From the NCBI RefSeq assembly GCF_037974265.1, contig NZ_CP150233.1, forward strand, positions 6,820,001 to 6,884,000: a stretch of 64,000 nt of DNA, given 5' to 3'. This document shows, piece by piece, positions 51,885 to 55,041 of the stretch. Each line of letters begins with the position of its first letter. Positions within the stretch are counted from its first letter, which is position 1. The translations under genes and the position numbers were made by a program. This DNA comes from Paenibacillus sp. FSL R5-0623 (GTDB lineage: Bacteria; Bacillota; Bacilli; Paenibacillales; Paenibacillaceae). The notes under the pieces were generated by a model. The model ran no database searches. It was not told the origin of the DNA and saw only the letters and a program-made list of their open reading frames with translations.

Positions 51885-52502
51885 CTATTTGCCATGAATC
51901 ACAAGTCCATATTTATTGAAGATCCACGATTGGCTCAAGTCGTGCATTGCATCATGGCTTATACGCACAGAGGGCTTTTGCTCCTTCATCGCATCTGCAT
52001 CACGGGCTGAGAAGCGAAGGGGTTTGGTCATTTTTTTGATAGATTCTCTTATTTCATCAAAAAACGCATAGGTCAGCGGCTTATGGTCCCGGATATCCTC
52101 ATAAATATAGTACTTTCCTTTTTCATCTTCCGAATTAACTTGAAAACCTTTCGGAAATGAAATCAAGATACACGGCAGTTCATCCTCTGCCCATTGTCCG
52201 TGATATGGAAAAGAAACCCCTTCATTTCTTACAAAAAATCCTGAACTTTCTTGATCTGATGCAATAGAAATAGAGTAAACAAAGAAGGGATGGATGTCAT
52301 CTCTCTTTTCTCCTGCCACAAAATACTGATAGAACGTCTGATACGCCTCGTACACCTGATTATAATCATGCTCTGTTCGGGCAGCATTGGTACGATAGAA
52401 TTGCGCTTGCCGATGCTCCAAAAGCTGCAAAAGGCTTTTAAACTCTTCAGGAGTGATGAAGAATCTCAGTTTATAGAATCCGCTATTCTTTAATTTGTCC
52501 AT
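51885..52502 (-). CDS. Hypothetical protein, 205 aa
   Basis: Soluble, mixed alpha/beta; begins MDKLKNSGFYKLRFFITPEEF. No recognised family. First of three closely spaced minus-strand genes with the membrane protein and the DUF4303-like gene, perhaps one transcription unit. Confidence 0.75.
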   Translation of the reverse strand: MDKLKNSGFYKLRFFITPEEFKSLLQLLEHRQAQFYRTNAARTEHDYNQVYEAYQTFYQYFVAGEKRDDIHPFFVYSISIASDQESSGFFVRNEGVSFPYHGQWAEDELPCILISFPKGFQVNSEDEKGKYYIYEDIRDHKPLTYAFFDEIRESIKKMTKPLRFSARDADAMKEQKPSVRISHDAMHDLSQSWIFNKYGLVIHGK

Positions 52503-52770
52503 TTCTTTTCGCTCACCGCCCTGTTTAGAAATGTTATGCCAATTGACCTTAGCGGTTCAGGTTCAACTATATATGTATCTTATTTCCATTATAGTGATTA
52601 CCTTTCCTGAGTCTACCTACTTTACACCTGAATTTTGCGAATGAACTGAGAAAGGGTAGCGAAATATAAGGATCATTGCGCTTGTACGCGAGCAAAAGAC
52701 ATGCGTGAGGTAATTCCAGGCTACCCCTCCTTGTGAGGATGGGAGCACGCCAACATCTCGTAATCAGCAC
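52503..52770. other. Gap upstream of the 205-aa gene: no gene seen
   Basis: Holds the presumed promoter of the 205-aa gene. A 67-codon minus-strand frame at 52567-52770 has no ribosome site and no protein-like character. Confidence 0.4.
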
Positions 52771-52809
52771 AAATTAGCCGTACGGATGATCACCCGTACG
52801 GCTAATTTT
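52771..52809 (-). terminator. Terminator of the L25 gene
   Basis: AATTAGCCGTACGG and CCGTACGGCTAATT pair around ATGATCAC. T-rich after the stem on either strand. The stem shares its CCGTACGGCT core with the terminator at 42544. Confidence 0.9.
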
Positions 52810-52839
52810 GAATTATTCAGCTTTGCGAATTTGGAATTG

Positions 52840-53385
52840 TTAAGGTTTAACTACAGAGAGAAGAGACTCATTCCCCTCAGAGATCACTGTCACATCTGGA
52901 GCAAACGTTGCATCACTTACATGTAACGTTTCTCCAAGTTCCATAGTACTAATGTCAAATTCAATCGACGTTGGCAAGTGTTTCGGCAAGGCTTCCACTT
53001 CAATAGAAGATAATTGGACTTGCACGACTCCGCCCTGTTTTGTACCAATCGGTGTGCCGTTGAACTTCACAGGAATTTTAGTACGCAGGATCTCATTGGT
53101 CTGCACCTGCTGAAAATCCACATGAAGTAAATCCCGTGTAACTGGATCACGCTGGAGATCTTCCAACAATACAGTCAATGAGCCTTTCTCCTCAAACTGC
53201 AGTTCGATAAAACCAGACGTACCCTGCTTCAACCATTTTTGAAATTGTATTGTTGGAATATGAATCATTTCATTCTCCGTATTTTTGCCAAACACAATAC
53301 CTGGCAAACGCCCGGATTTACGTAAATCCCTAAGTCGGGATGTATTTAATGGAATGCGGGTCTCCGCCACAAAACTAGTAGTCAT
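52840..53385 (-). CDS. rplY: 50S ribosomal protein L25/general stress protein Ctc
   Basis: 181 aa, the two-domain (TL5/Ctc) form. The N-terminal 90 residues bind 5S rRNA (RLRDLRKSGRLPGIVFGK), followed by a beta-rich C-domain. In B. subtilis ctc is a sigma-B stress gene, but no sigma-B promoter was recognised here. ATG 53385 has GAGGAG upstream, lying inside the small ORF that ends one base before it. Confidence 0.97.
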   Translation of the reverse strand: MTTSFVAETRIPLNTSRLRDLRKSGRLPGIVFGKNTENEMIHIPTIQFQKWLKQGTSGFIELQFEEKGSLTVLLEDLQRDPVTRDLLHVDFQQVQTNEILRTKIPVKFNGTPIGTKQGGVVQVQLSSIEVEALPKHLPTSIEFDISTMELGETLHVSDATFAPDVTVISEGNESLLSVVKP

Positions 53386-53386
53386 G

Positions 53387-53473
53387 CTATGTTCGCTCCT
53401 CTTTATTAAATGATATTTTCACATTTTTCATAGTCATCCAACCATCCCCTGTTGGGGCTAAAGAGAGAAACAT
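53387..53473 (-). CDS. 28-residue ORF coupled to the L25 gene
   Basis: Starts MFLSLAPTGDGWMTMKNV and ends SFNKEERT. The ATG has GGAGGTGGTGAT upstream, a stronger ribosome site than most real genes nearby. Its TAG is one base before the rplY ATG, so ribosomes could pass straight on. It may be a leader peptide or a small protein. I do not recognise it. Confidence 0.6.
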   Translation of the reverse strand: MFLSLAPTGDGWMTMKNVKISFNKEERT

Positions 53474-53546
53474 AGCATCACCACCTCCATATACGATCCA
53501 ATTGATTTTAAAATACATTTAATGTAAGCACCCACAATATACATGA

Positions 53547-53577
53547 AGGCACTCTACTCCGAAGAGTAGAATGCCTA
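53547..53577. terminator. Hairpin between the Eis-like gene and the L25 leader
   Basis: AGGCACTCTACTC and GAGTAGAATGCCT pair with one mismatch around a CGAA tetraloop. No T-run follows, so termination is likely but not certain. The rest of 53578-53751 has no gene. Confidence 0.55.
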
Positions 53578-53751
53578 TGGGATGCTTCAACCCTATCATA
53601 GAAACCTAGATTTGTCGATTTAACCCCATAATATGATCAAAAGTGTCTCCATCCAGTCCACATCGTTGATCAGCGTAGAGACCACCCCAACGTGGAGTGG
53701 CCTTCATGTCCTCATCTCTAATTTATATATCCTTAATACTCGTTGGATTCG

Positions 53752-54870
53752 TCAGAATTTATCTATCTTGTACCAGAATATCGGGAGTGGAAACCATCCA
53801 ACGGGCGCAGCAACTGCCATATAACGACCATGTTGTGTAAGCAGAAGCGCCTGAGCCTGCTGCTTATCAAGGACAACAGCATCGGTCTTAGCAGACCGCT
53901 CGACAGTCACACCACTCGCATCCACTCGCGCAGTAATTGGCTGACCGTCCATGACTGTTGAGAACTCCCCCTCTACTATCCCTGTGGTCTTGAACTTGAG
54001 TGTCAGATATGCCTCCAATACATTGGCAAAGTCCAGAATATGATACATATCCGATGTCTCAATAACATAGTCTTCCGCAATGTTGCCAAGTGTCGTATTC
54101 AGCGGAATATCATATTCCGGTGTAAATATAGATATACGATCTGTTCTGCTATGTACCATATAAGCCTTAATCGTCCGCGAAATATCTGCCGCATTTTCCA
54201 ACGCAAATTCAGATATTTCATCGCCTGTTTCGTTTACAATTAGATACCCAATCAGTTTACCTTGATCCAGAACGCCCAGCGCCTTTTGATGGAGGCTACC
54301 GAAAATAAGTGGCAATTGCTGCACTGCACGTTCAACATAAGCAAGCCGCGAGGTGTTGATGTTATGTGCAAAGGACTCTGCTCCTTCAATCTCGAAGAAC
54401 GGCCTGAAAGATATTCCTGTGTCGTTCACATGTTTTAAGCCATGGCGCACATTAGCCTCTCCCACAATATACTTGAGCTTTACACCGCCAAGCGTGAAGC
54501 CAAAATACTCATACCTCTGCCGCTGACCATATAATACAACCATATCACACGTATTGCGTAATTCCTCAAGCCACATGTCCATGAGCACCTTCATATGTCC
54601 TTCGCCACGCGCCCGTGGATGGACCGATACAGTACCTAAATAGCCGGTTCGCAGGGTATAGCCACATACCGTCAGGCGCTCTGGAAAAACAGCTACCTGC
54701 GCGCGCAGCCTGCCTTTCTCATCTACAGCTACCTTATGCATGGCAGAAGAATCTACGTTCTTCCCATACCCTTTTGGCATCAGGGTTTCAAAATCCAAGT
54801 GAAAAGCATAGTTGGCTAAATCGATACATTCTTCACGCTCATCTGGAGTTGCCATTCTGTATTCAGTCAT
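53752..54870 (-). CDS. Eis-like GNAT acetyltransferase
   Basis: 372 aa. N-terminal GNAT domain with the acetyl-CoA loop VHPRARGEGHMKVLM near 85, a second GNAT-like middle part and an SCP2-like C-terminal domain (about 280-372), the Eis layout. Family members acetylate amines on drugs or proteins. The substrate here is unknown. ATG preceded by AAAGGATAGGG. Confidence 0.9.
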   Translation of the reverse strand: MTEYRMATPDEREECIDLANYAFHLDFETLMPKGYGKNVDSSAMHKVAVDEKGRLRAQVAVFPERLTVCGYTLRTGYLGTVSVHPRARGEGHMKVLMDMWLEELRNTCDMVVLYGQRQRYEYFGFTLGGVKLKYIVGEANVRHGLKHVNDTGISFRPFFEIEGAESFAHNINTSRLAYVERAVQQLPLIFGSLHQKALGVLDQGKLIGYLIVNETGDEISEFALENAADISRTIKAYMVHSRTDRISIFTPEYDIPLNTTLGNIAEDYVIETSDMYHILDFANVLEAYLTLKFKTTGIVEGEFSTVMDGQPITARVDASGVTVERSAKTDAVVLDKQQAQALLLTQHGRYMAVAAPVGWFPLPIFWYKIDKF

Positions 54871-54987
54871 TTGCCCTATCCTTTCATAACATCAATATTG
54901 ATAAACAGCCTTCCAAAACATAATTCTAGGAGCATATTCAATATCCTGCCCAGCAGCGTAGAAGAGATCGACCGCATGTAAGCATGA

Positions 54988-55041
54988 AAAAAACACATCC
55001 CTAATTGGGATATAACCTTCTCCCAATCGGATGTGTTTTCC
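54988..55041. terminator. Bidirectional terminator after the 5'-nucleotidase gene
   Basis: AAAACACATCC and GGATGTGTTTT, with an inner ATTGGGA/TCCCAAT stem, form a long hairpin flanked by A and T runs. It ends the gene that stops at 55074 on the minus strand. Confidence 0.92.

Follow-up and report, generated by a model that had tools for sequence, protein, structure and literature searches.

The short open reading frame (ORF) that ends one base before a gene for ribosomal protein bL25 in Paenibacillus sp. FSL R5-0623 is, on balance, probably a translated leader ORF within a conserved 5′ leader that regulates a bL25 paralog in cis and in which it would act as a relay. It lies on the minus strand of the window, the stretch of 64,000 nucleotides analyzed here, to which the positions below refer. 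The conserved 5′ leader is about 200 nt long and has two parts, a core RNA element and then the ORF; from 5′ to 3′ it comprises a promoter, the hairpin P2, a linker, the motif TTTACATTWAATG, the Shine-Dalgarno (SD) region and start of the ORF, the hairpin P4, a variable stretch, and the L25 SD. Comparison or prediction is the basis for its conservation, the pairing of P2, the linker length, the start of the leader ORF, its open frame within one clade, the predicted helix P5, and the links to other genes. The features, all on the minus strand, are as follows.

53613 to 53618: −35 box, TCGACA (pattern scan and alignment)
53590 to 53595: −10 box, TAGGGT, with TGA before it (pattern scan and alignment)
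53512 to 53578: whole core element, matching model R2 at E 4.9e-7, the window sequence itself being among those used to build R2
53547 to 53576: P2, the 5′ hairpin of the core element, AGGCATTCTACTC / GAGTAGAGTGCCT (covariation)
53528 to 53546: linker from P2 to the conserved motif (near-constant length across loci)
53514 to 53527: conserved near-palindromic motif, TTACATTAAATGTA (nearly invariant in both alignments)
53477 to 53488: SD region of the leader ORF, GGAGGTGGTGAT (sequence and alignments)
53387 to 53473: leader ORF, 28 codons plus TAG (frame unbroken as far as L25 in 31 of the 37 loci of its class)
53459 to 53485: P5, 5′ arm, covering the leader SD, start codon, and codons 2–5 (predicted fold)
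53446 to 53457: P4, a CCCC-loop-GGGG hairpin (alignments and folds)
53377 to 53405: P5, 3′ arm, covering the L25 SD, start codon, and codons 2–3 (predicted fold)
52840 to 53385: short bL25 paralog, 181 aa (Pfam PF01386 and PF14693; PDB matches are bL25 chains)

A leader start precedes nearly all short L25 genes

A first-pass annotation of this DNA had described a 28-codon ORF with a strong ribosome site and a stop one base before the L25 gene, which is correct on the sequence for the minus strand. The ORF runs from 53473 to 53387 (87 nt, 28 codons plus TAG): its ATG at 53473-53471 begins MFLSLAPTGDGWMTMKNVKISFNKEERT, its TAG lies at 53389-53387, and one C separates the stop from the L25 ATG at 53385, giving the junction TAG-C-ATG. 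An alternative in-frame ATG at 53518 would lengthen the ORF to 43 codons, and an out-of-frame ATG at 53478 (53478-53476) opens a 6-codon frame, MLCFSL*. The same annotation had named the downstream gene rplY. Its identity as an L25 gene is borne out by both Pfam L25 domains, but it is not the only L25 of the genome: a second (G000:C1:5192802-5193311) has an open frame of 217 codons and is 35% identical over residues 9-180. A pattern search of 451 bases there, about 350 of them upstream, found no hairpin, motif, or leader SD.

Relatives of the short L25, 42 to 100% identical, occur in 66 of 392 genomes of the Paenibacillus order (E ≤ 1e-40), and 109 loci drawn from the order sample, named genomes, and other searches collapse to 69 distinct upstream regions. 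An SD-like stretch followed by a start codon (61 ATG, 6 GTG) is present in 67 of these regions, 83-110 nt ahead of L25, and by this comparison the leader start is more than a chance occurrence. In both exceptions, L115 and L131, the core element sits one gene further upstream; the intervening gene is one that we take from its sequence to be SulP-like at L115, where the element was read in L195, and a Cse60 gene at L131. Across 15 neighborhoods of the short L25, the L25 itself is the only gene cluster common to all, and the next most shared is found in seven. Since the gene neighbors vary while the leader stays, the leader appears to travel with L25 and not with the genomic place.

Upstream in the window, the neighboring gene (53752-54870) shares the minus strand with L25 and encodes a GNAT acetyltransferase (PF13527); the 366-nt gap between the two genes contains the promoter and the leader. 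Two loci carry altered L25 genes. In Bacillus sp. FJAT-28004 (L046) the short L25 is seemingly frame-shifted near residue 90, with two tblastn pieces in different frames, and at L193 (G322:C1:3306681-3306837) the leader stands directly before what seems to be no more than the downstream portion of the short L25 (E 1e-14), as though the beginning of the gene were missing.

A promoter and a core element with a covarying hairpin and a nearly fixed linker

A −35/−10 pair was found in 62 of the 67 leaders, with a spacing of 17 bp in 61, by a permissive scan that allowed up to two mismatches in the −35 box and up to one in the −10 box. Comparison thus supports a promoter belonging to the leader itself, from which the transcript would start near 53583. 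The hairpin P2 is paired in 98.6% of cells across 48 sequences, with double-sided changes at 6 of 13 pairs, although in this set the number of further pair types was equalled by 160 of 500 shuffles. Across 53 sequences from several gene families, 97.8% of cells are paired and 7 of 13 pairs are double-changed, a count equalled by 31 of 500 shuffles; the remaining covariation measures were equalled by none or one of 500. A G-C pair near the base of P2 is A-U, changed on both sides, in 7 of the 53 sequences (L199, L205, L213, L217, L219, L222, L226). An outer stem of the window's clade, P1, is paired in 69.4% of cells overall.

The distance from the end of GTGCC, at the base of P2, to ACATT is 23.5 ± 0.8 nt in 80 loci (42 of the 67 L25 leaders and 38 of 46 non-L25 leaders) and 22 nt in the window. 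Outside the L25 set it is 23.8 ± 0.5 nt in the 38 loci, where hairpin length has a standard deviation of 1.8; in the same measurement, 8 of 39 hairpin lengths are artefacts of a second GGCAT upstream that leave the linkers unaffected. Linker length is thus kept while P2 varies, so the spacing appears tied to the base of the hairpin, as would be expected of an RNA. The motif itself shows one compensatory double change in the 48-sequence set and none in the 53-sequence set, and is therefore probably read as sequence. This near-absence of compensatory changes, together with the near-palindromic form and A/T center of the motif, would also suit a protein that binds TTTACATTWAATG in the DNA as an operator, with P2 and the ORF secondary. 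We regard such an operator as very unlikely, because a motif that keeps its distance from a hairpin of changing length is placed relative to the hairpin base rather than the promoter.

Downstream of the motif, within the ORF, P4 begins at the 17th nucleotide (counting the A of the start codon as 1) and is present in most aligned rows with a loop of variable size. A ribosome at the leader start codon would run into a structure at about this position.

The leader start is predicted to pair with the L25 start

We next consider the predicted helix P5, in which the leader's ribosome site faces that of L25, whose own SD (AGAGGAG) is itself strong. P5 comprises 26 predicted pairs in the window, and the 126-nt stretch that contains it folds at −42.0 kcal/mol (z −5.2), with 0 of 200 shuffles as good. 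Compared with shuffled L25 sites, the mean duplex z-score is −4.2 in the window's class, F (31 distinct pairs), versus −1.4 in class Y (11), −0.3 in V (13), and −0.1 in K (1). On the register of the window's P5, 88.2% of cells are paired in F (30 distinct sequences), 69.9% in Y, and 49.7% in V. Covariation is low, with a double change at 4 of the 26 pairs in the F class. Swapping partners among 56 distinct pairs did little to weaken the pairing, with a mean duplex energy of −23.1 kcal/mol for own and −21.8 kcal/mol for swapped partners, and partners from other classes often did as well as the own partner or better; Y leaders reached −23.1 kcal/mol with F sites against −21.1 with their own, and V leaders −22.4 against −13.6. 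The swaps and the class z-scores support P5 in the F class alone. The prediction of P5 is thus strong in the window and its class, while the evolutionary proof for it is limited.

At several loci of the V class (L111-L114, L116-L119, L121-L129), the leader GUGCUC can pair with a mid-leader GGGAGCAC rather than with the L25 SD, as seen in folds of L117, L111, and L113; this pairing is perhaps an alternative switch.

The reading frame is kept in one class and the peptide is not

In the F class, 31 of 37 loci keep the frame of the ORF open up to the L25 start or past it, compared with 5 and 1 of 37 for the other two frames. The corresponding counts are 2 of 12 in Y (other frames 1 and 4), 0 of 17 in V (1 and 3), and 0 of 1 in K (0 and 0), such that the ORF ends early in 28 of the 30 loci of these classes. 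Conservation of the frame, which the first-pass annotation had proposed as a check, is therefore found in the window's class but not in the more distant ones (2 of 30).

We counted substitutions along a spanning tree of 21 distinct sequences of equal length. Changes that make or touch a stop numbered 11 in the ORF frame versus 43 and 42 in the other frames, and synonymous changes in the ORF frame were not enriched (54 of 264, or 0.205, against 0.253 expected). A shortage of stop changes combined with no synonymous enrichment is consistent with an ORF that matters through its translation and not through its peptide. The codon counts do not support a conserved small protein, one of the two roles first suggested for this ORF, and at some loci the peptide is cut to MFLY* (seven loci) or MKL* (one). 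The MFLY* leaders (L013, L053, L054, L099, L100, L101, L108) end with TGA, at a position where their relatives L014, L056, L103, L105, and L106 carry TGG, TTG, or TTA.

These data also bear on an attenuator of the ermC kind, in which an arrest in the first leader codons, caused by a drug, amino acid shortage, or another insult, would expose the L25 site. The two ribosome sites are predicted to pair mutually, as such a switch would have them do, and the leaders share similar N-termini of the form M-(F/V/C/Y)-(L/I)-, such as MFLSLAP, MVLFISP, MCISLLS, and MYISLSL. This likeness, however, may partly follow from the RNA pairing, and in codons 2-7 synonymous changes in the ORF frame (11 of 31, or 0.355, against 0.303 expected) do not exceed those of the other frames. 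With the peptide shortened to a few residues at the MFLY* and MKL* loci as well, we consider an arrest peptide unlikely.

The same codons raise a different start. If the leader began at the upstream ATG at 53478-53476, its product would be the 6-codon MLCFSL* in another frame. That ATG is present in the aligned leaders, its sixth codon is CTT, TTA, TTG, or CTA, all leucine (with ATT, Ile, or TCG, Ser, in some), and changes in codons 2-7 of its frame are synonymous in 10 of 19 cases (0.526, against 0.284 expected), although these numbers are small and the third frame, equally small in numbers, gives 13 of 24 (0.542). In the V class the SD would lie just 2 nt from this ATG, so only an ATG of the 53473 type fits, and it is the 28-codon frame whose openness to L25 is kept. 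MLCFSL* was demoted as the main reading on the V-class spacing, and we hold it to be improbable.

The core element precedes several other gene families

We built two models, R1 from the 5′ half of the leader and R2 from the core alone (69 positions). At E ≤ 0.01, R1 has matches in 157 of the 392 order genomes, far exceeding the number that carry the short L25; R2 matches 138 of 392 at E ≤ 0.001, mostly once each. In a sample of the class, R1 matches 25 of 398 genomes, 15 of them from the window's family. The other 10 genomes lie outside the order (E 2e-4 to 0.01), and we took their matches as chance, the hairpin-plus-motif pattern being absent in the six whose loci were read. Within the genome of the window, the L25 site is a strong R2 match and the other four have E values of 0.2 to 4.6. 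Two of these weak matches resemble plain terminators by sequence. Another of them, L235 (G000:C1:4868883-4868958, R2 E 1.67), has a hairpin and a motif-like stretch, TTTTACATTCAATGTAT, with a shorter linker.

From part of the R1 and R2 matches, we read 86 loci outside the L25 set and recognized the element by pattern in 82, dropping L197, L225, L298, and L304. Among these further elements, 73 precede genes for Cse60, a GreA-like factor, YdjO, a zinc-ribbon protein, or L25, and nine precede none of them. Counted on the same strand within the stretch fetched at each locus, the genes behind the 82 elements are Cse60 at 57, GreA-like at 18, short L25 at six, YdjO at six, and zinc-ribbon at five, with the caveat that the family HMMs were seeded from some of these loci, which match by construction. 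Some elements have several such genes behind them: zinc-ribbon, YdjO, GreA-like, and Cse60 in a row at L199, and Cse60 followed by L25 at L202 and L208. Other ORFs behind elements resemble, in our own naming from sequence, a diaminopimelate dehydrogenase, SulP, an antiporter, and a sulfatase. Pfam, run on single example proteins, gave YdjO at 9.9e-23 and 4.9e-20 with a third at 3.6e-5 below the cut-off, GreA_GreB at 2.8e-18 and 1.5e-15, and Cse60 at 5.5e-7 and 4.2e-4 over the cut-off with a third at 0.0021 below it; cut-short GreA-like pieces had no Pfam match. The small zinc-ribbon-like protein, with four cysteines, lies near a YdjO, Cse60, or GreA-like gene at L199, L200, L201, L220, and L228, and matched no Pfam family over the cut-off.

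By a crude scan of the 82 loci, the first ORF after the motif is short in 47, longer in 28, and was not found in seven; in those 28, the gene's own start comes first, with no leader ORF between. Tandem core elements stand ahead of a GreA-like gene at L210 (G120:C1:170568-170638 and 170674-170747, minus strand).

This distribution bears on autogenous repression, in which bL25, either the paralog or the main protein, would bind the leader RNA and block the ribosome site, leaving the ORF incidental. This reading is suggested by the structured leader ahead of a ribosomal protein gene, and Escherichia coli and its relatives repress rplY in this way with a hairpin ahead of the ribosome site, as the review PMC10931766 describes. 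Yet no L25 match lies in the stretch fetched behind 76 of the 82 further elements, the genome's other L25 is without the leader, and the open frame would go unexplained. Nor did Rfam offer a ribosomal leader in the stretches tested: across window positions 52000-55000, the single match at E values up to 1 fell within L25 on the opposite strand and scored 18.9 bits, where the gathering score is 34, and 11 further loci gave two miRNA models, below their gathering scores and outside the element, so that in these 12 stretches the core element matched no Rfam family. We judge autogenous repression to be distinctly unlikely.

L25 had also been called stress-linked at the outset, and this part of the claim survives as a lead. 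Among the 82 other loci, six have the core element ahead of a gene of the YdjO family, which is named cold-inducible. YdjO is described as cold-shock-induced (PMC6449464), and Pfam names Cse60 a sporulation protein. The genome of the window has two YdjO matches and four cold-shock-domain genes, and no Cse60 was found in it; one YdjO adjoins a csp gene, without an R2 match there. R2 had no match at the four cold-shock-domain genes up to E 10, and in a search with one seed sequence none of the 82 elements showed a Csp match behind it, so that no Csp link emerged. As the element turned up with no csp gene, cold is a lead only to what the core senses, as is another stress on translation.

A proposed relay from the core element to L25

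The preferred reading, a translated leader acting as a relay, could work as follows. The core element (P2, the near-fixed linker, and TTTACATTWAATG) would control initiation at the adjoining ribosome site, which at L25 loci belongs to the leader ORF and not to L25. As long as the leader is free of ribosomes, its SD, start, and first codons would pair with the L25 SD and start, keeping L25 off. Ribosomes loading on the leader would melt P5, perhaps aided by a pause at P4, and in the window's clade they would end next to or beyond the L25 ATG, such that L25 could be translated by coupling. Translation of the leader, the direction of control, and the relay itself are what we infer. Since the Y, V, and K classes combine a weak helix with an early stop, the relay cannot work in the same way there. 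Of the regulatory leader peptide that the first-pass annotation had suggested, the regulatory leader is upheld by comparison (the conserved leader, the promoter, and the pairing with the L25 start), but the conserved peptide is not.

More broadly, we tentatively propose that an unnamed RNA element of the Paenibacillus order senses a cell state, which may be cold or a stall in translation, and that it acts through the adjoining ribosome site to switch a small set of genes linked to the ribosome and polymerase. The regulon would comprise the bL25 paralog, the GreA-like factor, Cse60, YdjO, and the zinc-ribbon protein, a joint reading that we offer as a possibility and with the same reserve. For more distant target genes, the signal would be relayed by a short leader ORF, not fixed in sequence, that opens a helix. 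If true, this would amount to a new cis-regulatory RNA family with a defined, testable gene set, and to a leader ORF that serves as a relay regardless of its peptide sequence. One element controlling the spare bL25 along with the GreA-like factor and two little-known proteins, Cse60 and YdjO, would also provide a route to the function of these proteins.

Comparison with known systems

A survey of ribosomal leaders by Eckert and Weinberg gives an L25 leader for Enterobacteria, and the string 'paenibacill' is absent from its main text (PMC7247131). A Paenibacillus riograndensis transcriptome study reports L20 and L21 leaders, with 'L25' absent from the main text (PMC5670726). We found no description of the present element among the open-access papers searched.

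Translational attenuators of the ErmC type combine a strong SD on a short leader ORF with leader sequence that hides the SD of the next gene. Here too, by sequence, a leader ORF has its own SD, and hiding of the L25 SD by the leader is predicted in the window and the F class but is weak in Y, V, and K. The present system differs in its separate conserved RNA element upstream, common to unrelated genes, and in a leader peptide that is not conserved as an arrest peptide would be. Cold-shock 5′ untranslated regions of the cspA type are structured 5′ leaders of small stress proteins; they differ in that R2 finds no element at the genome's four csp-type genes and that Csp follows none of the 82 elements.

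In the E. coli-type rplY leader (PMC10931766 and PMC7247131), a hairpin and a weak SD (GAGA) mediate repression by bL25. The likeness lies in a structured leader before a bL25 gene and in the translational control that we propose; the differences lie in the strong SDs found here, in place of a weak GAGA, in the leader ORF, and in a core element that extends beyond L25. The genes behind the element suggest no ligand. As with riboswitches, a conserved structured RNA, presumably transcribed, stands in the 5′ leaders of several gene families. In the B12 riboswitch of Mycobacterium tuberculosis ppe2 (PMC11260477), translation of an upstream ORF is needed for the next gene through termination-reinitiation. 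The RNA, the organism, and the genes there are different, and the ligand is known, but the arrangement is alike, with a 5′ element and a leader ORF ahead of the gene.
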